A DNA stretch of 49,317 nt, from contig JADLCR010000002.1 in the NCBI GenBank assembly GCA_020847095.1, positions 1-49,317 of the forward strand. Reading direction: 5' to 3'. A program made the position numbers and the translations under genes. Source of the stretch: Oligoflexia bacterium (GTDB taxonomy: Bacteria > Bdellovibrionota > Bdellovibrionia > JABDDW01). Within the stretch, counting starts at the first letter, position 1, and every line of letters starts with the position of its first letter. This document shows positions 1,648 to 15,549 of the stretch, one piece after another. The notes beneath the pieces were generated by a model. It made no database searches, had not been told where the DNA came from, and saw nothing but the letters and a program-made list of their open reading frames with translations.

Positions 1648-2256
1648 ATGGCTGCGTCATTTGAAAGTCGTTACTTCGCTGAGGTTCAGAAAATCGCCAC
1701 TACAATCAACTTAGACACCATTGCCAAGATGGTTTCCATTCTCAACGACCTACAAGAGCGTCACGGGCGACTTTTCTTTTTGGGAGTTGGCGGAAGTGCT
1801 GCCAATTGCACCCACGCCGTCAATGACTTCAGAAAGATTGCCGGAATCGAATGCTACTCACCCGTTGATAATGTGGCTGAACTCACGGCAAGAATTAATG
1901 ACGACGGGTGGGAGACGGCTTTTACAAACTGGCTTAAAATTTCAAGACTCAGCTCTAAAGATGCCCTTTTTATTTTTTCGGTCGGCGGGGGAAATAAAGA
2001 AAAAAACGTAAGCGCCAATTTGGTTCACGCGATGGATTTTGCGAAATCAGTGGGCGCTAGGATCATGAGTATTGTTGGTCGAGATGGGGGCTATGCAGGG
2101 AAAGTCTCCGATGCCTGCATCATCATCCCGACCCAAAGTCAGGACACCATCACGCCCCATGCAGAGGCATGGCAAGCCGTCGTTTGGCATATGCTCGTGG
2201 CTCATCCACAGGTCATGAAAAATGCAAACAAATGGGAATCGATCGACAAAAAATGA
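1648..2256 (+). CDS. gmhA: SIS-domain sedoheptulose 7-phosphate isomerase, GmhA-like
   Basis: This 202-residue protein has the sugar-isomerase fold. FFLGVGGSAANCTHAVNDF carries the phosphate-binding Ser/Gly loop, and a second SIS pattern follows at IFSVGGGN and IMSIVGRDGGYAG. GmhA converts sedoheptulose 7-phosphate to D-glycero-D-manno-heptose 7-phosphate, the first committed step of heptose nucleotide synthesis. Length matches the family (about 190-200). The start is an ATG preceded by AGGGAGA. The gene overlaps the next one by 4 nt (ATGA), and that product is the matching GmhB-like phosphatase. HddA- and HddC-like genes downstream point to the GDP-heptose rather than the ADP-heptose route. 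A phosphosugar isomerase of another specificity is possible but less likely here. Confidence 0.85.
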   Translation: MAASFESRYFAEVQKIATTINLDTIAKMVSILNDLQERHGRLFFLGVGGSAANCTHAVNDFRKIAGIECYSPVDNVAELTARINDDGWETAFTNWLKISRLSSKDALFIFSVGGGNKEKNVSANLVHAMDFAKSVGARIMSIVGRDGGYAGKVSDACIIIPTQSQDTITPHAEAWQAVVWHMLVAHPQVMKNANKWESIDKK

Positions 2257-2798
2257 CGTCACAAAAGGCGGTCTTTCTTGATCGGGACGGAGTCATCAAC
2301 GCAGCTATCGTTCATGATGGATTACCCTACCCACCACAATCCATTGACACCCTTCGAATTATTCCAGGAGTGAGCCAGGCACTGGAAAAGCTAAAGTCGC
2401 TGGGATTCTTAACGGTGGTCTTTACTAACCAGCCGGACGTTTCGAGGGGAAAACAAACTCAAGAAGAAGTCGAAAACATCAACAACTTACTCAAAGCCCA
2501 ACTGCCTCTTGATTCGATAAAAACCTGCTACCACTCAGACAGCGACAAGTGCCAATGTCGAAAACCCCTACCCGGAATGATTTTAGAAGCCAGCCGCGAG
2601 CTCGGCATTGATCTTGGAAAATCTTTTGTCGTCGGAGATCGATGGCGGGACATTGATGCCGGTAAGGCTGCTGGCTGCAGAACTTTTTTCATCGATTACG
2701 GGTATTCGGAGAAGAGGCCTGAGCCCGACTGGGTCGTGCAGTCGCTACTCGAAGCGACTCAAATCATTGCTCATCTAGAATCGCAGTCAATCGGCTAA
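2253..2798 (+). CDS. gmhB: D-glycero-D-manno-heptose 1,7-bisphosphate phosphatase, GmhB-like (HAD family)
   Basis: This 181-residue HAD hydrolase starts at an ATG that overlaps the stop of the isomerase gene. HAD motif I is FLDRDGVIN with the nucleophile Asp, motif II is VVFTNQ, and the last motif is VGDRWRDIDAGKAAG. Between them CYHSDSDKCQCRKP matches the C-x-H-x(n)-C-x-C zinc loop that marks GmhB. The enzyme removes the C7 phosphate from heptose 1,7-bisphosphate after the HddA-type kinase has acted, leaving the heptose 1-phosphate for nucleotide activation. The 3' end overlaps the convergent glycosyltransferase gene by 35 bp. Confidence 0.88.
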   Translation: MTSQKAVFLDRDGVINAAIVHDGLPYPPQSIDTLRIIPGVSQALEKLKSLGFLTVVFTNQPDVSRGKQTQEEVENINNLLKAQLPLDSIKTCYHSDSDKCQCRKPLPGMILEASRELGIDLGKSFVVGDRWRDIDAGKAAGCRTFFIDYGYSEKRPEPDWVVQSLLEATQIIAHLESQSIG

Positions 2799-4757: not shown

Positions 4758-5471
4758 ATGGGCTTAAAACCGATGCGCATTCACATTTATGCTGACGGAG
4801 CCAACCGTGACGACATGCTACGGCGCTACAAAGAAGGTGCTGTCAAGGGTTTCACGACAAACCCAACACTGATGGCAAAGGCCGGCATCCGAGATTACGA
4901 ATCTTTTGCGAAATCTGTTTTAGAAGTCATCAAAGACCTCCCCATCTCTTTCGAAGTTTTCTCCGATGATTTTCCAGAAATGAAAAAACAAGCATTAAAA
5001 ATTAAGTCCTGGGGAAGCAACGTTAACGTAAAAATTCCCATTTCAAATACCAAAGGTCAATCGTCGTCACAGTTGATAAAAGAATTGTTGGCCGAAGGCA
5101 CAAAGCTCAATGTGACGGCCATTTTCACAAAAGAACAGCTCACCGAACTTCGAGCCATCATGAATAAAAATGATGATGTCATTGTTTCTGTTTTTGCAGG
5201 AAGAATTGCCGACGCTGGTTTTGATCCCGTCCCGTTAATGAGTGAAACCGTAAAAATGTTTTCTGATTTACCAAAGGCAAAAGTCCTTTGGGCTTCTCCA
5301 CGCGAAGTTCTCAACGTCTACCAAGCTGATGAATGCGGTTGCCACATCATTACTGTCACAGACGACATTCTCAAAAAACTAAGCCTCCGTGGAAAAAACC
5401 TAGGAGAGTTTTCTTTAGAAACCGTAAAAATGTTTTACGACGATGCCACCAGGGCCGGGTTTCAACTTTGA
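4758..5471 (+). CDS. Transaldolase (TalC/fructose-6-phosphate aldolase type)
   Basis: The 237-residue protein is a class I aldolase of the small transaldolase family. It shows YADGAN near residue 11, GFTTNPTL at 31-38, and the Schiff-base Lys92 in NVNVKIPIS. Length is slightly above the usual 215-220. The ATG at 4758 follows AGGAG with a 7-nt spacer. Transaldolase can make sedoheptulose 7-phosphate from fructose 6-phosphate and erythrose 4-phosphate. Because it sits inside a heptose cluster, I infer that it supplies the GmhA substrate. Its stop overlaps the TTG start of the next gene (TTGA). Confidence 0.85.
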   Translation: MGLKPMRIHIYADGANRDDMLRRYKEGAVKGFTTNPTLMAKAGIRDYESFAKSVLEVIKDLPISFEVFSDDFPEMKKQALKIKSWGSNVNVKIPISNTKGQSSSQLIKELLAEGTKLNVTAIFTKEQLTELRAIMNKNDDVIVSVFAGRIADAGFDPVPLMSETVKMFSDLPKAKVLWASPREVLNVYQADECGCHIITVTDDILKKLSLRGKNLGEFSLETVKMFYDDATRAGFQL

Positions 5472-6430
5472 AGGTTCTAATCACCGGAGTTGCGGGTTTT
5501 ATCGGAAGTCACCTCGCCGACCATTATTTGGCCCAAGGAGTTCAAGTCGCAGGGATTGACAATTTCTCAACGGGCCAATCGGAATTTTTAGTCGGCGCTA
5601 ATAAGAATCCCGGTTTTAAACTCTTTCAATCGGACCTTTTTAATTACACCAACACGGAAAAGATTTTAAAAGAATTCAAACCCGATGCGGTCGTCCATTT
5701 GGCAGCAAATGCAGACGTGCGATTCGGGCTCAATCACCCGCGCAAAGATTTAGAACAAGGAACCATTTGCACATTCAATATTTTAGAAGCCTCAAGGCAA
5801 GCTGGCGTTAAACAATTTGCCTACTCTAGCACCGGTTCAGTTTACGGCGAGCCCACTGTATTTCCGACTCCCGAAAGCTGTTCATTTCCGATTCAAACAA
5901 GCCTTTATGCGGCAAGCAAACTAGCTGGTGAAGCACTAATCCAATCTTATGCTGAAGGTTACGGCATCAAGGGATACATTTTCCGATTTGTCTCTATTTT
6001 AGGCGAACGATACACCCACGGTCACATCTTTGATTTCGCCAAGAAGATTAAGGCCAATTCCAAGTCCATCGAAGTCTTGGGTGATGGCAATCAGCAAAAA
6101 GCTTACCTCTATGTCGGCGATTGCATCCGTGCCATCGACCACATCATGAAGACGCAAAATGAAAAAATTAATATTTTTAACTTAGGCCCCGATGAATACT
6201 TAACTGTTAATCAATCTCTTGATGTGATCTGTAAAACAATGAACGTCCAGCCCACTCGCGACTACACCGGCGGTAAAAGAGGCTGGATTGGTGATAGCCC
6301 TTTTATTTTTCTAGACTGCACCAAGCTTAAAAAAACAGGTTGGAAGGCCACCCGCACCATTCGCGAAAGCGTTGAAATCACTTTAAAGTATTTATTGGAA
6401 AACTCTTGGTTACTAGAAAGAAGGTCTTAA
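5468..6430 (+). CDS. NAD-dependent epimerase/dehydratase (extended SDR)
   Basis: The start is the TTG at 5468, because LKVLITGVAGFIGSHLADHY begins exactly there and the codon overlaps the upstream stop by 4 nt. The product has 320 residues. The Rossmann loop is GVAGFIGS, the active-site pair is YSSTGSVYGEP and YAASKLAGE (Y-x3-K), and a sugar-binding half follows. The family includes UDP-hexose 4-epimerases and related enzymes on nucleotide sugars. Its place directly before the HddA-like kinase suggests a heptose-related substrate, which the sequence alone does not prove. The next gene starts one base after its stop. Confidence 0.8.
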   Translation: MKVLITGVAGFIGSHLADHYLAQGVQVAGIDNFSTGQSEFLVGANKNPGFKLFQSDLFNYTNTEKILKEFKPDAVVHLAANADVRFGLNHPRKDLEQGTICTFNILEASRQAGVKQFAYSSTGSVYGEPTVFPTPESCSFPIQTSLYAASKLAGEALIQSYAEGYGIKGYIFRFVSILGERYTHGHIFDFAKKIKANSKSIEVLGDGNQQKAYLYVGDCIRAIDHIMKTQNEKINIFNLGPDEYLTVNQSLDVICKTMNVQPTRDYTGGKRGWIGDSPFIFLDCTKLKKTGWKATRTIRESVEITLKYLLENSWLLERRS

Positions 6431-7408
6431 ATGATTCTCACAAGAGCACCGCTTCGAATTACTTTTGGAGGCGGCGGAACTGACCTACCGTCTTACTATC
6501 GAAAATTCGGCGGTGAATTGGTTGCGGCAGCCATAGATAAATATATCCACATCGCCCTTCACAAAATCTTTCCAAATGAATTTATTATTAAATATTCCCA
6601 AATCGAAAGAACACCGCACCTTGAAGAAATCAAACATCCGATCATTCGAGAGGTCTTGCGATTTCATGGAGTTGATCCCCGATTAGAGATTCTCAGTATG
6701 GCCGACATTCCAGATGGCACGGGCTTGGGATCATCGGGAAGCTTCACCGTCGCGCTGATTAAGGCAATTTCTTTTTACAAGCGTCAGCATTTGCTCACAC
6801 AGGAATTAGCTGAAGAGGCTTGTGATATTGAAATTAACAAGTTAGGGGCACCAATCGGGAAGCAAGATCAATATGCCGCCGCCTACGGTGGCATTACTTG
6901 TTTTAAATTTAATAAAGACGACACCGTCACCGTTGAGCCGGTTCACATCAGCCCCGAGACTTTGCACTCTCTAGAAGACGATCTTCTATTATTTTTTACC
7001 GGTTACAGCCGAAGTGCTTCAGCCGTTCTCAGTGAACAAAAGAAAAAATCCGAGTCCCTTGATAAAGACATGCTTGAAAATCTTCACTTCACGAAAGAGC
7101 TCGGCATTCAGTCTCGAAAAACATTGGAATCAGGCGATTTGAAAGAATTCGCCAGACTCATGCACGTCCATTGGGAAAATAAAAAGAAGAGATCCCAGTC
7201 GATGACCAAATCAGATATCGATAATGCCTATAATGTTGCCATGGATAACGGAGCACTGGGCGGAAAATTGATCGGAGCCGGAGCTGGGGGCTTCTTAATG
7301 TTTTACACAAAAGACCACAGCCTTCTAAGAAATGCGATGAGCAAACTCAATTTGGAAGAGGTGCGTTTTAAGTTTGATTTTGAGGGAGCAAAGGTCGTTT
7401 CAACATGA
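6431..7408 (+). CDS. hddA: D-glycero-alpha-D-manno-heptose 7-phosphate kinase, HddA-like (GHMP family)
   Basis: This 325-residue GHMP kinase begins RAPLRITFGGGGTDLPSYY, a hallmark of HddA and related sugar 1-kinases. The ATP loop is PDGTGLGSSGSFTVA near residue 95, and the C-terminal GHMP motif is GGKLIGAGAGGFLMFY. HddA phosphorylates C1 of D-glycero-D-manno-heptose 7-phosphate in the alpha configuration, which leads to GDP-heptose. The gene starts directly after the upstream stop and overlaps the next gene by 4 nt. The presence of gmhA, gmhB and hddC homologues makes the heptose assignment strong. A fucokinase-like role is the main alternative. Confidence 0.88.
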   Translation: MILTRAPLRITFGGGGTDLPSYYRKFGGELVAAAIDKYIHIALHKIFPNEFIIKYSQIERTPHLEEIKHPIIREVLRFHGVDPRLEILSMADIPDGTGLGSSGSFTVALIKAISFYKRQHLLTQELAEEACDIEINKLGAPIGKQDQYAAAYGGITCFKFNKDDTVTVEPVHISPETLHSLEDDLLLFFTGYSRSASAVLSEQKKKSESLDKDMLENLHFTKELGIQSRKTLESGDLKEFARLMHVHWENKKKRSQSMTKSDIDNAYNVAMDNGALGGKLIGAGAGGFLMFYTKDHSLLRNAMSKLNLEEVRFKFDFEGAKVVST

Positions 7409-8736
7409 GCCAAACCGTTCTCGTCGTTGGGACATGGCATTTAGGATCAGTCATTGGGGTGTGTACCGCAAATGCGGGTCAAAACGTTTACCTATGGGAT
7501 CAAAATGACAATGTTAAAAGCCAGTGGTCAAAAGGTAGCCCTCCCCTGCATGAGCCGGGGCTTACCGATATGGCGACGAAGCTCTTTGGAAAAAACCTTT
7601 TTTGGGCGTCTGACTTAAAATCAGTCAGTCAAAAAGCTCAGTGGATTTTTCTTTGCTACGACACGCCCATAGACGACAAAGATGAAATACTGCTCGATTC
7701 GGTGGAAGACGGATTTAAAACCGTATTGAACCAAGGGTTTTCAAATGATTGCCGATTTTATTTTACAAGCCAACTTCCGGTTGGAACCTCACGTCGATTT
7801 CGAAATCTGATAACAAAGGCGAATCCGCACTGGCAAGGTCATGTCATTTACCAACCTGAAAACTTGAGACTGGGCGAAGCCATTTCATGCTTTCTAAAGC
7901 CCGATCGCATGGTGCTAGGAATCGACTCTCAGGACAATTCAATTCGAAACAAACTGCGCGACGATTTTTTGAAATTGACTGGAATTACAGACGTCCCTGT
8001 AAATCTCATGAGCCTCGAAACCGCAGAGATGACGAAACACGCTCTTAACGCGTTTCTCGCCGTGAGTGTGGTTTTTGCTAATGAGTTGGCAGAAATTTGC
8101 GAGGAAACAGGGGCTGACGCTTGGGAAGTTGTAGCGAGCCTCAAACAAGACGCTCGAATCGGGCCAAAAGCCTTTTTGCGACCGGGCATGGGCTTTTCAG
8201 GCGGGACACTCGCCCGTGATGTCAAAACACTTAGTCATTTGACTCCTCCGAATAAAAATCACAGTTTTTTTAAAGAACTCTACTCCATCAACCAAGCGCG
8301 TAACCTCTGGATCAAACGACAGCTGGAAAGCCGACTTGGTTCCCTCAAAGGAAAGAGAATCACGCTATTGGGAGTGACCTATAAGCCCCAAACAAGCACG
8401 GTGCGCCGTTCACCGGCGTTAGAACTCGGCCAGCTTCTTAAAAGCGAAGGAGCAAAACTCGTAGCCCTAGATCCGATGGCTGACCTTTCTGAACTCACAA
8501 CAGCAGAGCGACAAGGTTTGCCATTTGAACTGATGCAATCGCCTGAGGAGGCGTTGAAGAAATCGCATGGCGCGGTTTTGATAACGGAATGGCCACAATT
8601 TAAGGAGCTTAATTGGACTCAATTGAAAGACACCATGGAAGTGCCTCTCCTCGTAGATACAAAAAATTTCTTATCCCAAATAGGCCAACTCGGGTATCGC
8701 GTCGTGATTCCCGGAAAACCAAAGGATCTGACATGA
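7405..8736 (+). CDS. UDP-glucose/GDP-mannose dehydrogenase homologue lacking the catalytic Cys
   Basis: The 443-residue protein aligns with nucleotide-sugar 6-dehydrogenases. It has an NAD-binding loop GTWHLGSVIG at 9-18 in place of GxGYVG, TSQLPVGTS near 121, and ETAEMTKHALNAFLA with Lys211 and Asn215. The C-terminal segment GVTYKPQTSTVRRSPALEL is also typical. The catalytic region reads PGMGFSGGTLARD, so the thioester-forming Cys is replaced by Thr268 while the Asp four residues later (272) is kept. The usual PEFLREG reads PENLRLG, so the Glu that hydrolyses the thioester is also lost. It may carry out only one oxidation, or different redox chemistry, on a heptose nucleotide. It overlaps both neighbours by 4 nt. 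Confidence 0.85.
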   Translation: MSQTVLVVGTWHLGSVIGVCTANAGQNVYLWDQNDNVKSQWSKGSPPLHEPGLTDMATKLFGKNLFWASDLKSVSQKAQWIFLCYDTPIDDKDEILLDSVEDGFKTVLNQGFSNDCRFYFTSQLPVGTSRRFRNLITKANPHWQGHVIYQPENLRLGEAISCFLKPDRMVLGIDSQDNSIRNKLRDDFLKLTGITDVPVNLMSLETAEMTKHALNAFLAVSVVFANELAEICEETGADAWEVVASLKQDARIGPKAFLRPGMGFSGGTLARDVKTLSHLTPPNKNHSFFKELYSINQARNLWIKRQLESRLGSLKGKRITLLGVTYKPQTSTVRRSPALELGQLLKSEGAKLVALDPMADLSELTTAERQGLPFELMQSPEEALKKSHGAVLITEWPQFKELNWTQLKDTMEVPLLVDTKNFLSQIGQLGYRVVIPGKPKDLT

Positions 8737-9572
8737 AAAAGCGCGTGCTGATTACCGGCGCCGGTCGTGGAATCGGGCAAACCATTGCCGTAACACTCAC
8801 CGGACTTGGCTTTGAAGTCAGCGGGTGTGCTCGTTCACAAAAAGAATTGCAAGAAACCAAGGACCTCACCAAAGGGGCCATGCATACGACCCCAGTTGAT
8901 GTGACAGACGAGCAAGACTTACGAAAGTGGATTCTCACTGAAATGGCCAAACCCGGCGCCGAACCTTGGGGCCTTGTAACCGCTGCCGGGATTTATGGCC
9001 CTATCGGGTCTTTTGTGGATAATTCTTGGGACGATTGGAAAAAGGGAATTGAGATCAACCTGTATGGCACCGCCTTGGCCTGTCAGATTTTTGCCGGTGA
9101 GTTGATCCGACTCAAAAAACAAGGCTCTATTGTCTTGCTGTCTGGAGGTGGAGCCACGCAGCCGCTTCCCCAATTTTCGAATTACTGCGCGGCAAAAGCG
9201 GCTGTCGTACGATTCGGAGAAACTCTTGCCCAAGAACTCAAACCACACGGAATTACTGTCAACGCCGTCGCACCAGGAGCGGTTAATACAAAACTAACTG
9301 AAGAGCTGCTTCAAGCGGGACCAGAAAAGGCCGGGCGCGACATGTACGAAAAAGCGCTTAAACAAAAAGAATCCGGTGGCACAAGCCCTCAAAAAGGATC
9401 GGACCTCGCCGCCTATCTATTGAGCCATGAGGCGCGCCAAATCACGGGACGACTTATTTCAGCCGTATGGGATCCGTGGGGAACCATGCACGAGAATGCA
9501 GAAGAAATTATGAGAACGGATATTTATACTCTGCGAAGAATTGTTCCAGAAGATAGGAAAAATCGACCATGA
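8733..9572 (+). CDS. Short-chain dehydrogenase/reductase (classical SDR)
   Basis: The ATG at 8733 overlaps the upstream stop (ATGA) and begins MKKRVLITGAGRGIGQTIA, so the longer open frame upstream is not used. The 279-residue protein has the NAD(P) loop TGAGRGIG, a VTAAGIYGP variant of the NNAG motif, and catalytic Ser, Tyr and Lys in LLSGGG and YCAAKAA. The segment AVAPGAVNT follows, as in classical SDRs. It is likely to oxidise or reduce a hydroxyl or keto group on the sugar handled by the flanking enzymes. This is inferred from position only. It overlaps the Gfo/Idh/MocA gene by 4 nt. Confidence 0.85.
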   Translation: MKKRVLITGAGRGIGQTIAVTLTGLGFEVSGCARSQKELQETKDLTKGAMHTTPVDVTDEQDLRKWILTEMAKPGAEPWGLVTAAGIYGPIGSFVDNSWDDWKKGIEINLYGTALACQIFAGELIRLKKQGSIVLLSGGGATQPLPQFSNYCAAKAAVVRFGETLAQELKPHGITVNAVAPGAVNTKLTEELLQAGPEKAGRDMYEKALKQKESGGTSPQKGSDLAAYLLSHEARQITGRLISAVWDPWGTMHENAEEIMRTDIYTLRRIVPEDRKNRP

Positions 9573-10561
9573 AAGTGGCCATTCTTGGTTGTGGATTAAT
9601 TGGCGAGCGTCGCGGTCTTCAGATTGCTCCTCACGAAATTGTTGGAGTCTATGACCCGGATGCCGAACGCGCTAACAGCCTCGCAAAAAAACTCAATACA
9701 AGAACTTTTCAAAATGAAGAGGACTTACTCAAGAATTCACGGTGCGATATTGTCATCATTGCAACTCAAAACAATCAATTGGCCCCCTTGGCGTTAAAGG
9801 CCATTGAGGCCCTTAAGCACGTACTTGTGGAAAAACCCGCCGCCATTCAAGTAAACGAACTCGTAGCGCTAAAAGAGGCTGCGAAAAAATCAAAGGTCGC
9901 CGTCAAGGTTGGATTTAATCATCGGTTTCACCCGGCTCTAATGAAAGCCAAAGAACTCTGCGACGAAGGCGCTCTAGGAGAGCTCATGTTTTTACGAGGG
10001 CGCTATGGGCACGGGGGCCGTCTCGGATATGAAAACGAATGGCGTTCCAATGCGAAAATTTCGGGTGGAGGAGAATTAATTGATCAAGGAGTTCACCTTC
10101 TTGATTTGATTTATTACTTTCTTGGCCCGCTGCCGCACCACACGTCAATGGTCACCACAAGCTATTGGCCAATCAAGGTCGACGACAATGCGGTCCTTAC
10201 ACTTTCGGACGGCAAGAAATGGGCAACTTTTCATGTGAGTTGTTCAGAGTGGAAAAATACCTTTTCTTTAGAAATATATGGCCGCACTGGAAAAATTTTA
10301 ATTGGCGGCTTGGGGAAGAGTTACGGCAAAGAAACTTTGACTTACTATCGTATGCTTCCTGAAATGGGCCCACCCGAATCAAAAACCTTTGAGTTTGATT
10401 CAGAAGACCGGTCTTGGAGTCATGATTTAGAAAATCTCGTCAATCACATCACTTCCGGCAGTCCGCTACTTGGAGATTTGGACTCGGCCCTTTACGCCCT
10501 CAAACAGGTGCGCGAAGCTTATCGCGCCAATGGATTCTTAAACTTGCCATGCAGTGTTTAG
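9569..10561 (+). CDS. Gfo/Idh/MocA-family oxidoreductase
   Basis: This 330-residue protein has the N-terminal Rossmann loop GCGLIGERRG, the catalytic Lys in the EKPAA motif, and the GGGELIDQGVHLLDL motif with its conserved Asp and His. These features define the family, which oxidises or reduces sugar carbons with NAD(P). In polysaccharide clusters such enzymes often make 3-keto or amino sugar precursors. It follows two other redox genes with 4-nt overlaps, and its end overlaps the guanylyltransferase gene by 13 nt. The three probably act in sequence on one nucleotide sugar (inference). A DegT-type aminotransferase at 19983-21107 might use the ketone. Confidence 0.85.
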   Translation: MKVAILGCGLIGERRGLQIAPHEIVGVYDPDAERANSLAKKLNTRTFQNEEDLLKNSRCDIVIIATQNNQLAPLALKAIEALKHVLVEKPAAIQVNELVALKEAAKKSKVAVKVGFNHRFHPALMKAKELCDEGALGELMFLRGRYGHGGRLGYENEWRSNAKISGGGELIDQGVHLLDLIYYFLGPLPHHTSMVTTSYWPIKVDDNAVLTLSDGKKWATFHVSCSEWKNTFSLEIYGRTGKILIGGLGKSYGKETLTYYRMLPEMGPPESKTFEFDSEDRSWSHDLENLVNHITSGSPLLGDLDSALYALKQVREAYRANGFLNLPCSV

Positions 10562-11286
10562 TTTTAGCCGGGGGCCTCGGCACCCGAATGAAATCGGTAT
10601 CGGTTAACAAGCCTAAAGCCCTCTTACCAGTGGGCCATCAAACTTTTATCGATTGGCAGCTGCAATGGTTGAAATGTCTTGGCATGAACAGCGTCGCCCT
10701 GTCCCTTGGGCACGGTGGCGAAGTTATCGAAGCCCATCTTCGTACAAAACTCGGAAGCCCCAACTACCCGTCGCTAGCTTTTGTTTATGATGGCCCGGAA
10801 CTGCTTGGTACCGGTGGCGCCGTAAAAAAGCACCTTCATATGCTCGATCAAGATTTTATTGTGACCTATGGGGACACCATTGTTTTTGCGCCGTTAAATA
10901 AGCTGATGACAAGTCATAAGGATTCAAAAAAACCCCTGACCATTGTCATTCTTGAAAACCGAAATCAAGGTGACAAGAGCAACGTTGTCTTTACCAACCA
11001 GCGATTTCATTACGATAAATTTAAGACCACCCCGGAAATGCATCATATCGACTCTGGAATGCTCGTTATTTCAAAGGAGCATTTTAAGTCCAATTCTCAC
11101 GAACAGAAATTTGATTTGGCCTCGTACATGACGAAATGTTGTGAACAGGGCTTGGCCAATCCTTTCTTGATCGAAAGATTGTTTATCGAATTGGGATCCC
11201 CGGCGGGATACGAAAACTTCAAAAAGATTTTCGAAGCACCTGACTTTTCATTAGAAAAATTAGCGAAAAGCGCAGGGCTTTTATGA
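10549..11286 (+). CDS. hddC: Nucleotidyltransferase, HddC-like heptose 1-phosphate guanylyltransferase
   Basis: The 245-residue protein starts MQCLVLAGGLGTRMKSV and continues with NKPKALLPVG, the nucleotide-binding signature of sugar-1-phosphate nucleotidyltransferases. GTGGAVKKHL and the metal-binding YGDT follow. The short length without a C-terminal beta-helix domain fits HddC-type enzymes. The predicted reaction is GTP plus D-glycero-alpha-D-manno-heptose 1-phosphate giving GDP-heptose. GTP specificity is inferred from the presence of GmhA-, HddA-, GmhB- and Gmd-like enzymes and is not read from residues. It overlaps genes at both ends. Confidence 0.83.
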   Translation: MQCLVLAGGLGTRMKSVSVNKPKALLPVGHQTFIDWQLQWLKCLGMNSVALSLGHGGEVIEAHLRTKLGSPNYPSLAFVYDGPELLGTGGAVKKHLHMLDQDFIVTYGDTIVFAPLNKLMTSHKDSKKPLTIVILENRNQGDKSNVVFTNQRFHYDKFKTTPEMHHIDSGMLVISKEHFKSNSHEQKFDLASYMTKCCEQGLANPFLIERLFIELGSPAGYENFKKIFEAPDFSLEKLAKSAGLL

Positions 11287-12026
11287 AGGAAACGCAACTT
11301 TTTAAGCTGCCCTTTATTTATGGCGATCACCAATCTCAACTACAATATATAAAGTCGTTAACGCAGAAATCTCGCGGAAGCAGTGTCATTTTTTGCAACG
11401 CACATTTAATTTCCGAATGCGCCACTCACCCGGCGTTTTATGAATCAATGAAGTCTGCCAGCGCGGTCATTTTTGATGGTGTACCTCTCGTTTGGACCGC
11501 TCGGATGTGTGGAATGAAGGATCCCAACCGGTACTCTGGCGCCGATTTTATGACTGATTTTTTTCGGGCCACACCCAACGAAAAGCACTTTTTCTTAGGC
11601 TCCACTCAGCAGGTGCTCGATAAAATTAAATTACGATTTCCCCATTTGAACGCCGAATACTTTTCGCCTCCGTTTAAAGGTCATTTCGATCAAAATGAGC
11701 TCCAAGATCATCGTCAACGGGTACTAGAATCAAGAGCCCGATTCGTGTGGGTGGGGCTGGGGGCTCCCAAACAAGAAAACTACGTGCTCACCCAGGCCCC
11801 GCAAACAAAAGGGGTCGTCTGGCTGGCCGTGGGAGCGGCATTCGATTTTTTGTCGGGTCAAAAGGCCCGAGCACCCCAATTTTGGCAAAAATACGGCTTA
11901 GAATGGGCCTGGAGGCTCGTTCAGGAGCCTAAACGTCTTGGCCCCAGGTACCTTAAAACCAACCCCCTGTTTGTTTTGGCGGCGGCCAAAGAAGTATTAC
12001 GGAACTTGCCTCGTAAAGCTCTCTAA
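11283..12026 (+). CDS. WecG/TagA/CpsF-family glycosyltransferase (GT26)
   Basis: This 247-residue protein has the family patterns SSVIFCNAHLIS, VIFDGVPLVW, NRYSGADFM with the conserved Asp, and VWVGLGAPKQENYV. The C-terminal block AVGAAFDFLSGQKARAPQ and LEWAWRLVQEPKRLGPRYLK is diagnostic. GT26 enzymes such as WecG and TagA transfer N-acetylmannosamine or its uronic acid to a lipid-linked sugar at the cytoplasmic face of the inner membrane. The real donor here is unknown. It overlaps hddC by 4 nt, and galE follows after 16 bp, so it belongs to the long operon. Confidence 0.88.
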   Translation: MKETQLFKLPFIYGDHQSQLQYIKSLTQKSRGSSVIFCNAHLISECATHPAFYESMKSASAVIFDGVPLVWTARMCGMKDPNRYSGADFMTDFFRATPNEKHFFLGSTQQVLDKIKLRFPHLNAEYFSPPFKGHFDQNELQDHRQRVLESRARFVWVGLGAPKQENYVLTQAPQTKGVVWLAVGAAFDFLSGQKARAPQFWQKYGLEWAWRLVQEPKRLGPRYLKTNPLFVLAAAKEVLRNLPRKAL

Positions 12027-12042
12027 GGTACAAAAATCCTTC

Positions 12043-13017
12043 ATGATTAAGGTACTTGTAACCGGTGGAGCCGGCTATATCGGATCCCATGTTTGTCGTC
12101 ACCTTCATGACGCGGGATATGAAGTTTTTGTTCTCGACAACCTTTCTACGGGATCGAAGGAAAATATCATTTCTCCAGCAACATTCATTGAAGGTTCCGT
12201 CGGCAATCCTGAGCTCGTGCGTCAGATTTTAACTGATCATGAAATTAAGAATGTGGCCCATTTCGCTGCCTCCATTGTCGTCCCTGAGTCCGTAGAAAAT
12301 CCGCTCAAATACTACGAAAACAATGTGTGTCAGACCGTGGGACTTCTCGATGGTTGCCTTAAATCTGGGGTGACATCCTTCTTATTTTCTAGCACCGCCG
12401 CCGTTTACGGCACCGGAAATCAATCAGAAATTTCAGAACAATCAGAAATTGCGCCGATGAATCCCTACGGCTCCACAAAGGCCACCGTTGAAACCATGCT
12501 AAGAGAAGTTGGCGCGGCCTCGGGAATGCGCCATATTTCTTTGAGGTATTTCAATGTCGCAGGGGCCGATCCGCAATCAAGACAAGGCCAGCGAAACAAA
12601 AAATCCACCCACCTGATCAAGGTGAGCTGCGAAGCTGCTTTAAAAAGACGGCCCTTTGTGGAAATTTTTGGAACAGATTACTCAACAGAAGACGGCAGTT
12701 GCGTTCGTGATTTCATTCATGTCGAAGACTTATCCCAGGCCCATGTTCAAGCGCTCCGTTATCTCTCCAAGGGCGGGCCATCGGATATATTTAATGTCGG
12801 TTACGGAGAGGGATATTCGGTCAAGCAAGTCATCGCCGAGCTCAAATCCGTTTCAGGCGTTGACTTTGAAGTTCGAAACGCTAAACGACGCTCAGGAGAC
12901 CCGGCAAGACTTGTCGCGAAGTCTGACAAAATACGAGAAAAACTGGGCTGGGAACCTAAATATCAAAGTTTGAGAAAAATTGTGACCGATGCTCTGAATT
13001 GGGAGCGTCAGCTTTAA
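12043..13017 (+). CDS. galE: UDP-glucose 4-epimerase
   Basis: The ATG at 12043 begins MIKVLVTGGAGYIGSHVCRH, so the open frame upstream is not part of the gene. The 324-residue extended SDR has GGAGYIGSH, the catalytic SSTAAVYG and NPYGSTKATVE (Y-x3-K), and RYFNVAGADP, which is typical of GalE. CVRDFIHVEDLSQAH follows further on. It interconverts UDP-glucose and UDP-galactose in the cytoplasm and so feeds the glycosyltransferases. Length is slightly shorter than E. coli GalE (338). The gmd gene follows after 9 bp. Confidence 0.9.
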   Translation: MIKVLVTGGAGYIGSHVCRHLHDAGYEVFVLDNLSTGSKENIISPATFIEGSVGNPELVRQILTDHEIKNVAHFAASIVVPESVENPLKYYENNVCQTVGLLDGCLKSGVTSFLFSSTAAVYGTGNQSEISEQSEIAPMNPYGSTKATVETMLREVGAASGMRHISLRYFNVAGADPQSRQGQRNKKSTHLIKVSCEAALKRRPFVEIFGTDYSTEDGSCVRDFIHVEDLSQAHVQALRYLSKGGPSDIFNVGYGEGYSVKQVIAELKSVSGVDFEVRNAKRRSGDPARLVAKSDKIREKLGWEPKYQSLRKIVTDALNWERQL

Positions 13018-13026
13018 GGAGTAACA

Positions 13027-14088
13027 ATGGCTTCACCAAAAAAAGCGCTCATTACGGGCATCACTGGGCAAGACGGCTCCTATCTCACCGAGTTGCTCTT
13101 AGAAAAGGGGTACGAGGTTCATGGAATTATTCGCCGCTCCAGTAGTTTCAATACGGATCGGATTGAACACTTGTATCGCGATCCTCACAATAGAGACACA
13201 CGCCTTTTTCTCCACTACGGCGATTTAAGCGATTCAACCAACCTCAATCGAATCCTTAAGAAAGTACAACCTGATGAAATTTATCACCTAGGGGCCCAAA
13301 GTCATGTTCGTGTGAGTTTCGATATGCCCGAGTACACAGCCGACGTCACCGGAGTCGGAACCATCAGACTCTTAGACGCGATTATCGATTCGGGAGTTCA
13401 AACAAAATTTTATCAGGCATCCTCTTCCGAAATGTATGGCAAAGTCCTCGAGGTGCCTCAAAAAGAGAGCACTCCCTTTTATCCTCGAAGCCCCTATGGC
13501 TGTTCAAAGGTTTTTGCCTATTGGACAACCGTGAATTATCGGGAAGCGTACAATCTCTTCGCTTGCAATGGCATTTTGTTTAACCACGAAAGCCCTCGCC
13601 GCGGAGAAACTTTTGTCACTCGAAAAATCACCCGAGCACTTGCCAAGATTCTCAACGGAAAACAAAACGATTTATTTCTTGGAAATCTCGACGCCAAAAG
13701 AGACTGGGGATACGCAAAAGACTACGTCCATGCGATGTGGTTAATGCTTCAGCACCAAACGCCTGATGATTATGTCGTAGCCACTGGCGAAACCCATTCA
13801 GTGAGAGAATTTTTGGAGATCGCCTTTGGCCTTGTAGGGCGAAACTATGAAGACTATGTGAAAATCGACCCAAAGTACTTTCGACCAACTGAAGTGGATC
13901 TCTTGATCGGTGATCCCACCAAAGCCAAAAAGGTTTTGGGCTGGAACCCCACCGTCTCATTCAAGGAATTAGTAACCTTAATGGTCATCGAAGACCTAAG
14001 ACTCGAAGGACTTGATCCTGAAAAATATATTAAACTAAGTGAGAGGATTCATGAACCGCTGGAGCGTGAGCAATCCCGTAACATTTAA
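13027..14088 (+). CDS. gmd: GDP-mannose 4,6-dehydratase family (Gmd-like)
   Basis: The 353-residue protein starts after TAAGGAG. It has [20 protein letters not shown], the substrate loop [13 protein letters not shown], the catalytic [10 protein letters not shown] with [11 protein letters not shown], and [15 protein letters not shown]. These match Gmd closely. Gmd converts GDP-mannose to GDP-4-keto-6-deoxymannose. In Campylobacter and Yersinia close relatives act instead on GDP-D-glycero-D-manno-heptose. Since this cluster makes GDP-heptose and I see no mannose-1-phosphate genes, a heptose substrate is a reasonable inference. It overlaps the fcl-like gene by 38 bp. Confidence 0.9.
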
Positions 14089-15019
14089 CGACTTTCAAGG
14101 ACTCAACATTGTCGTCACTGGAGGAAGTGGATTTCTGGGACGCCATGTAGTTCAAGAGCTGTTGAATCGGGGTGCTGAAAAATCGCGCATCCGGATTCCG
14201 AGAAGCGCAAACCTTGATTTGCGCCGTCCCGATCATGCTGAAAAAGCCGTCGCGGAGGCGGATCTTGTCATTCACTTGGCGGCCAGGGTGGGTGGCATTG
14301 GACTAAACCAAAAACTACCGGCGGAGCTCATCTATGATAATTCCATGATGGGTTTAAATGTGATTCATGGGTGTTACAAATCCAAGGTCAAAAAACTTGT
14401 TGTAGCGGGTACTGTATGTGCCTATCCCAAATTTACTCCCACTCCCTTTAAAGAAGACGACCTTTGGAATGGCTATCCTGAAGAAACAAACGCTCCTTAC
14501 GGCGTGGCAAAAAAAATGTTATTGGTGGCCCTGCAAAGTTATCGCTCTCAATACAATCTAAGGGGCATTTATTTGCTTCCTGTAAATCTCTACGGCCCTC
14601 ATGACAATTTTGACCTGGAATCGTCGCATGTCATTCCCGCTATGATTCGAAAATTCATTGAAGCCAAGGTCAATGGGGTTTCAAACGTGACCCTTTGGGG
14701 CGACGGCACCCCTTCTCGCGAATTTTTATTTGTAGAAGACTGCGCCCGAGGGCTTATCGAAGCAACGCTCGGTTTTGACGGTCCTGAGCCAGTCAATTTA
14801 GGAACCCAGGAAGAAACCAACATTCGCTATTTGGCTGAAACGGTCAAAGACCTAGTCGGATATAAAGGCGAAATAATTTGGGACAAATCTAAACCAAACG
14901 GACAGCCCAAACGCCAGTTAGACACTTCACGCGCCGTGGAAGCTTTTGGATTCAAAGCCCAGTGGACGTTACGTGAGGGACTTAAAAAAACCATTTCCTG
15001 GTACGAAGCTCAGAAATGA
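14051..15019 (+). CDS. fcl: GDP-L-fucose synthase-like epimerase/reductase (Fcl/WcaG family)
   Basis: I chose the ATG at 14051 because GAGAGG lies 4 nt upstream of it. The product has 322 residues. Features are [23 protein letters not shown], the catalytic GTVCAYPK with the conserved Cys, the APYGVAKK Tyr/Lys pair, and [12 protein letters not shown] with the conserved His. Fcl epimerises C3 and C5 and reduces C4 of GDP-4-keto-6-deoxymannose. Homologues in 6-deoxy-heptose pathways act mainly as C4 reductases beside a separate RmlC-like epimerase. That is the arrangement here, because an RmlC-like gene follows with a 4-nt overlap. Confidence 0.85.
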
Positions 15020-15549
15020 AGATAACAAAAACTGAAATTGCAGGCGTATTTATCATCGAACCCCAGCTTTTCTGGGACGACCGCGGTTTTTTCACAGAAG
15101 CTTGGAATAAAGAAATATTTAACAAAAATGAAATTCCCGCTGATTTTGTACGAAGCGCTATTTCATACAATCCCAAAAAATGGACTTTGCGTGGCCTGCA
15201 CTTTCAGACAGGGTCCCACGCAGAGGCAAAGTTAATTCAAGTTTTCAAAGGTCGAATTTTTGATGCGGTTGTTGACATCAGAAAAGGAAGCCCCACGTTT
15301 GGTAAATATTTTTGTTTTGAGCTTGGTGAAAAGGATCGAAAGCTCATTTATGTTCCGAGAGGAATGGCTCACGGCTTTTTGACACTCGAAGACGAAACAG
15401 TTGTAACTTACCAGCTCGATAACCACTACGCACCATCGGCTCAGTCTGGAATTCGGTTTGATGATCCAGCTTTTAAGGTGCCGTGGCCTCATACTCCAGC
15501 AAATATTTCAGAAAAAGATCTGCAGTTTGCTGATTTCAAATCATCATGA
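15016..15549 (+). CDS. RmlC-like sugar 3,5-epimerase (cupin)
   Basis: This 177-residue cupin matches dTDP-4-dehydrorhamnose 3,5-epimerases. It has FWDDRGFFTEAWN near 19-31, LRGLHFQ with the base His62, VFKGRIFDAVVDIRKGSPTFG, PRGMAHGF and the Tyr132/Tyr138 pair in VTYQLDNHY. No RmlA, RmlB or RmlD homologue is present, so dTDP-rhamnose is unlikely as the product. In GDP-6-deoxy-heptose pathways such as the Campylobacter DdahB/MlghB branch, an RmlC-like enzyme epimerises GDP-4-keto-6-deoxyheptose. The adjacent Gmd- and Fcl-like genes support that reading. It overlaps neighbours by 4 nt on both sides. Confidence 0.85.
   Translation: MKITKTEIAGVFIIEPQLFWDDRGFFTEAWNKEIFNKNEIPADFVRSAISYNPKKWTLRGLHFQTGSHAEAKLIQVFKGRIFDAVVDIRKGSPTFGKYFCFELGEKDRKLIYVPRGMAHGFLTLEDETVVTYQLDNHYAPSAQSGIRFDDPAFKVPWPHTPANISEKDLQFADFKSS

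Follow-up and report, generated by a model that had tools for sequence, protein, structure and literature searches.

UDP-glucose dehydrogenases (UGDs) oxidise C6 of an NDP-hexose with NAD, capture the resulting aldehyde on a catalytic Cys, carry out a second oxidation and release the uronic acid by hydrolysis, with two NAD+ used. Other described systems bear on the locus presented here. HldD, the ADP-heptose 6-epimerase, is a single SDR-fold enzyme that performs chemistry at the heptose C6 via a 6-ketone. In WbpA/WbpB-type pairs a UGD-family enzyme is combined with a Gfo/Idh protein; WbpA keeps the Cys and makes a uronic acid, and an aminotransferase follows. In Campylobacter jejuni, the GDP-heptose C4-dehydrogenase Cj1427 converts an NDP-heptose into a ketone, within a pathway that includes GmhA, HddA, GmhB and HddC (PMC10680097). 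As far as the available portion of that article goes, the GDP-heptose modification enzymes of Campylobacter include neither a UGD-fold enzyme nor a C6 dehydrogenase, and the inversion of GDP-heptose C6 in Campylobacter capsules is stated to be unresolved.

The window analysed in this work, that is, the whole stretch of 49,317 nucleotides from an Oligoflexia bacterium (contig JADLCR010000002.1, assembly GCA_020847095.1), carries at 7405..8736 on the forward strand an intact open reading frame of 443 aa, with an ATG start and a TGA stop, that overlaps a kinase gene upstream and an SDR gene downstream by 4 bases each. Its product, hereafter the Thr-type dehydrogenase, scores above the Pfam cut-offs of PF03721, PF00984 and PF03720 (77.2, 79.6 and 84.6 bits vs 27, 25.4 and 30, respectively) and above that of TIGR03026 over its full length (258.6 vs 189.8 bits), but below the NCBIfam equivalog cut-offs of TuaD (227.4 vs 700) and AglM (209.6 vs 670). 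An AlphaFold2 model computed with 50 family sequences as input reaches a mean pLDDT of 94.4, and the best Foldseek matches of this model are UGDs over the whole length (TM 0.85-0.89, best E 2.8e-36). The protein is a complete member of the NDP-sugar dehydrogenase superfamily with its three-domain fold. At 25-34% identity to Sphingomonas elodea UgdG (4a7p), Burkholderia cepacia BceC (2y0e) and human UGDH, it has in common with these enzymes the fold, the residues that bind NAD and NDP, and the Lys, Asn and Asp of the first oxidation. It departs from them in the replacement of Cys by Thr, Tyr10 by His, Thr118 by Gln and the second Glu by Leu, further in the changes of Gly9 to Trp, Phe to Asn and Asp/Asn325 to Thr, and in having a heptose-type cassette as its genomic home.

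Catalytic positions were set by alignment to solved UDP-glucose dehydrogenases, with the reference numbering of PMC4794789. The motif FSGGTLARD, YGGSCFPKD in the solved enzymes, places Thr268 (codon ACA, 8206..8208, forward strand) on the catalytic Cys, while Leu156 of PENLRLG (codon CTG, 7870..7872, forward strand) aligns with the second Glu of PEFLxEG, which corresponds to Glu145 in S. pyogenes and Glu165 in the human enzyme. The cofactor loop GTWHLG spans residues 9-14 and carries Trp in place of the second Gly of GxGYVG. The placing of Thr268 and of the Leu of PENLRLG, the loop sequence GTWHLG and the retention of Lys211, Asn215 and Asp272 had been proposed in the initial annotation and agree with the alignment. 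Overall, W11, H12, Q123, N153, L156, G267, T268 and T332 are changed in the active site, whereas E152, E208, K211, N215, N226, R251, D272, K327 and R334 are kept; among the latter, E152, K211, N215 and D272 represent the invariant Glu141, Lys204, Asn208 and Asp264 of the canonical four-electron enzymes (UDP-glucose, GDP-mannose and UDP-ManNAc dehydrogenases). T332 pairs with L156, so that the normal contact between Glu145 and Asn/Asp325 is replaced on both sides. H12 for Tyr10 and Q123 for Thr118 alter two more positions of the normal mechanism. In this regard, a survey of 229 enzymes shows no variation at Cys260 and Thr118 and 98% conservation of Tyr10; Thr118 and Tyr10 serve the catalytic water and thioester hydrolysis, the last hydrolytic step being reportedly catalysed by Tyr10 (PMC4794789).

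The loss of the Cys had been presented as a peculiarity of one protein, a view that does not hold. Relatives were sought in the phylum of the genome, in plasmids, in GTDB species genomes (the best 80 of 319 confirmed relatives were used), in viral contigs and in phages. Thr occupies the Cys position in 48/48 sampled clade members and Cys does so in 34/34 canonical relatives; Q123 and H12 are likewise present in all 48 of the former, and every full-length member checked reads GGTL[A/G/N]RD, PEN and Q123. Clade members are 35-57% identical to the Thr-type dehydrogenase and come from many bacterial phyla, with others on plasmids and on some archaeal contigs. Fifteen positions are fixed differently between the 48 clade and 34 canonical sequences (W11, H12, L13, D86, D93, Q123, N153, L156, H212, G267, T268, L269, R271, T332 and R335). 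As the genome scan patterns included WHLG or AEM.KHA, they account in part for the fixation of W11, H12, L13 and H212; in the genome set, T268, L156, Q123, N153 and G267 are fixed independently of the patterns. K211, N215, D272, E152, R251 and R334 are invariant or nearly so in the clade and K327 is found in 45/47 members, while the equivalents of Cys260, Tyr10 and Thr118 each give way to a single residue that is the same throughout the clade.

In a tree built by a quick method and containing long branches, a single branch (SH-aLRT 99) parts the Cys-less group from all canonical sequences. The inner order of the group does not track the phyla, which suggests horizontal transfer. The Thr-type dehydrogenase thus belongs to a widespread UDP-glucose dehydrogenase branch whose sampled members all have Thr for the catalytic Cys. 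A lone loss-of-function mutant was rejected given that the trait is fixed in the clade, and so was a sequencing error, since the reading frame continues through the flanking codons and the same residues recur in a sister genome (G002) at 56-57% identity. One Streptomyces plasmid match (H7) was discarded as a clade member, being a canonical Cys enzyme. Neither the clade nor its cassette could be traced in the open-licence literature; subscription literature may catalogue Cys-less members. The sister genome also encodes, at about 91.4 kb of G002:C36 (L149/L173), a Cys-less relative with Asn at the Cys position (GGN), in which the Glu at the Glu145 position is kept and whose neighbours differ, with aminotransferase-like and transketolase-like ORFs.

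The initial annotation had further proposed that both residues of the thioester chemistry were lost, and this is true of the Cys only. The Glu best linked to thioester hydrolysis, human Glu161, which by our own count along the human sequence we take to be the first Glu of PEF and hence E152 here, is retained in 47/47 clade members. A mutant of Glu161 in the human enzyme was crystallised with a covalent thiohemiacetal intermediate (PDB 3khu title). What has been lost is the second Glu of PEFLxEG, which lies near the diphosphate and is only 76% conserved (Glu145; PMC4794789). In 34 canonical Cys-containing relatives this column reads E in 21, P in 10 and Q in 3 and, because 13 of them carry P or Q, the change from Glu to Leu is not diagnostic on its own. 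A search by conservation for another Cys that could fill the site returned only C232, conserved in 92% of the clade; this residue lies in another helix and is a Cys in 35% of canonical proteins too, so that a compensating Cys was rejected.

The gene sits in a conserved nine-gene mobile cassette. In the window, all on the forward strand, a SIS-domain sugar-phosphate isomerase (1648..2256), GmhA-like in profile scores but below the GmhA cut-off, is followed by a GmhB-like HAD phosphatase (2253..2798, likely start ATG 2253). After two glycosyltransferase genes come a transaldolase (4758..5471), an NAD-dependent epimerase family protein (5468..6430, exact start uncertain), whose closest solved structure is A. 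fulgidus GalE-1 (3ehe) and whose second-best PDB match is 8rdg, and an HddA-like GHMP kinase (6431..7408), a putative heptose kinase from its profile scores and best PDB match. Directly 3' of the Thr-type dehydrogenase lie a classical SDR oxidoreductase (8733..9572), whose ATG at 8733 overlaps the dehydrogenase stop, and a Gfo/Idh/MocA oxidoreductase (9569..10561) with intact EKP and DQGxH motifs, both ketone/alcohol-type enzymes; then an HddC/MurU-like sugar-1-phosphate nucleotidyltransferase, assigned from profile scores (10549..11286), and a WecG/TagA/CpsF glycosyltransferase (11283..12026), which is also present in G002 and falls outside the general cassette. In the epimerase, SDR, Gfo/Idh, kinase and transaldolase, the catalytic motifs appear to be preserved. 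The 3' flank of the cassette (11283-15549) comprises the WecG-type gene together with GalE-like, GDP-mannose 4,6-dehydratase-like, GDP-fucose synthase-like and RmlC-like genes, and G002 has a WecG-type gene and three epimerase/dehydratase-type genes in the same order.

Across 43 loci of at least 18 kb, chosen by the sequence of the dehydrogenase alone, the partners recur as follows: Gfo/Idh in 42, SDR and epimerase in 40 each, kinase in 35, transaldolase in 31, SIS in 30, nucleotidyltransferase in 29 and HAD in 28, with all eight together in 22. When neighbouring ORFs were clustered, other families appeared each in at most 11 loci. By comparison, homologues of SIS, transaldolase and kinase were found in 0/16 control regions (11 to 20 kb) around canonical Cys-type UGDs taken from the bacterium's own class and genome. 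The full gene set also occurs in Rhizobium jaguaris and on plasmid 3 of Lawsonia intracellularis (L014, NC_008014.1), an obligate intracellular pig pathogen, where the annotation is generic (galactokinase, transaldolase, nucleotide sugar dehydrogenase). Viral contigs (L101-L119) hold short relatives of about 230-250 aa without the C-terminal NDP-binding domain and with GGH/T/S at the Cys position; in two of them (L102 and L117) the short relative stands beside homologues of the epimerase, kinase, transferase, SIS and transaldolase, and a version of the cassette seems to be carried by viral contigs.

By analogy, the cassette looks like a pathway for an unusual seven-carbon sugar. The transaldolase exceeds the TIGR02134 cut-off (311.3 vs 281.95) and the best PDB match of the kinase is 3k85 (1.4e-50). 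The term heptose is nevertheless an analogy only, because the neighbours fall below the equivalog cut-offs of the GDP-heptose enzymes: SIS 42.9 vs 209 for GmhA, kinase 184.7 vs 600 for HddA, HAD 124.1 vs 178 for GmhB and transferase 98.0 vs 300 for HddC. The SIS protein lacks the acid/base Glu and His positions of GmhA, and an octulose is a further possible product of the transaldolase. Elsewhere, the same genome encodes a true GmhA and two further transaldolases; the cassette SIS and transaldolase are therefore dedicated copies, and the idea that the pathway depends on an ordinary GmhA supply was rejected. Since the genome also harbours a second SIS isomerase beside a second HddA-like kinase (L154, G000:C42, about 17.6-18.1 kb), at least two heptose-type pathways are probable in this organism.

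These findings allow us to propose, tentatively, that the Thr-type dehydrogenase is an NAD-dependent, two-electron NDP-heptose dehydrogenase that would convert the secondary C6 alcohol to a ketone, to be processed further by the SDR and Gfo/Idh proteins. A two-electron outcome of any sort is likely. NDP-heptose is the substrate that we infer by analogy with the neighbouring genes, while carbon 6, the order of the steps and the final product of the pathway are a guess. In the proposed scheme, the transaldolase would yield a seven-carbon ketose phosphate, which the SIS enzyme would turn into an aldose phosphate; kinase and phosphatase would lead to the 1-phosphate and the nucleotidyltransferase to NDP-heptose, on which the epimerase and the Thr-type dehydrogenase would then act. 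As C6 of a heptose is a secondary alcohol, one hydride transfer would give the 6-ketone and oxidation would end there, leaving Cys, thioester and hydrolysis without use. The exchanges of Cys to Thr, Glu to Leu, Phe to Asn, Thr to Gln and Tyr to His would widen the pocket or alter its polarity and may make room for the extra CH2OH. SDR and/or Gfo/Idh could subsequently act on the keto-sugar, by reduction or a further oxidation, and so provide an epimerised heptose for surface glycans. In line with this notion, the kept residues belong to step one and the replaced ones mostly to later steps, and a secondary-alcohol precedent exists in the UGD fold, namely human UGDH with UDP-4-keto-xylose (PDB 9dh0 title). 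The retained equivalent of human Glu161, tied to the second half-reaction, argues against a C6 ketone.

The same residue could be read as a sign that the enzyme still carries out the four-electron oxidation to the acid, in a manner that dispenses with the covalent thioester. Histidinol dehydrogenase offers a parallel in its oxidation of an aldehyde hydrate, and T268 or H12 would perhaps position the water. Asp272, Lys211 and Glu152 are indeed retained and, because a Cys->Ala UGDH mutant still oxidises added aldehyde (PMC3184952), an acid might form via the hydrate. We consider it improbable, however, given that no member keeps Thr118 or Tyr10, the residues in charge of the catalytic water and of hydrolysis (PMC4794789), and that the cassette brings ketone-type partners but neither a decarboxylase nor an amide synthase. 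The mutant also fails to complete the reaction from UDP-glucose (PMC3184952) and the second oxidation should be impaired without the Cys, both of which would suit an enzyme whose target is a primary alcohol (hexose C6 or heptose C7) and whose reaction ends with an aldehyde for its SDR or Gfo/Idh partner. This too has a low probability in our view: aldehydes are reactive, human UGDH releases none, and the clustering of neighbouring ORFs revealed no conserved aminotransferase or aldolase in the cassette that could consume one.

A different substrate, such as an NDP-octose or a modified hexose, or a different ring carbon such as C4, as in human UGDH with UDP-xylose, is unlikely, though somewhat less so. 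The transaldolase could take a five-carbon acceptor, the cassette SIS is not a true GmhA and C4 oxidation has been observed in the UGD fold (PDB 9dh0); yet heptose enzymes are the nearest relatives of kinase and transferase, and the NDP-sugar contacts that bring C6 to the nicotinamide (K211, N215 and R251) are kept. That the protein is catalytically dead or only structural, as the loss of the catalytic Cys might suggest, is very hard to reconcile with the strict conservation over many phyla of K211, N215, D272 and the NAD and diphosphate contacts, and with a strictly fixed Thr. The initial expectation that the usual four-electron oxidation does not take place, and that the enzyme may stop at an aldehyde or act at another carbon, hence seems reasonable, with the Cys gone, the residues for alcohol oxidation and for binding of NAD and nucleotide sugar kept, and a heptose-type operon around the gene.

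Compared with the described systems, the proposed C6-ketone enzyme would have chemistry at C6 through a 6-ketone in common with HldD, but in another fold and with separate reductases alongside. The locus resembles WbpA/WbpB in placing a UGD-family enzyme beside a Gfo/Idh sugar dehydrogenase, and differs in the absence of the Cys and of a conserved aminotransferase. Formation of a ketone from NDP-heptose would be a point of likeness with Cj1427, which however acts at C4 and recycles its bound NADH with alpha-ketoglutarate (PMC10680097). The novelty lies in a branch of the NDP-sugar dehydrogenases that lacks the Cys, probably performs a two-electron oxidation and comes with a conserved pathway of its own.

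Database names of the clade genes (UDP-glucose 6-dehydrogenase or nucleotide sugar dehydrogenase) imply a uronic acid, a product that the known mechanism probably cannot deliver in these enzymes. The clade represents a natural experiment in which a four-electron enzyme probably became a two-electron one. It is conceivable, albeit with some reserve, that the nine genes form a phylum-spanning, horizontally moved pathway for an undescribed nucleotide-activated higher sugar, in which a UGD-fold enzyme was turned into a dedicated C6 secondary-alcohol dehydrogenase of NDP-heptose and dehydrogenase and reductase together change C6. Such a C6 dehydrogenase would offer a testable kind of answer on C6 inversion, in organisms elsewhere than Campylobacter, and the cassette would add a nucleotide-sugar pathway to those known, present in bacteria and archaeal bins as well as on plasmids and viral contigs, with L. 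intracellularis, a pathogen of pigs, among its carriers.
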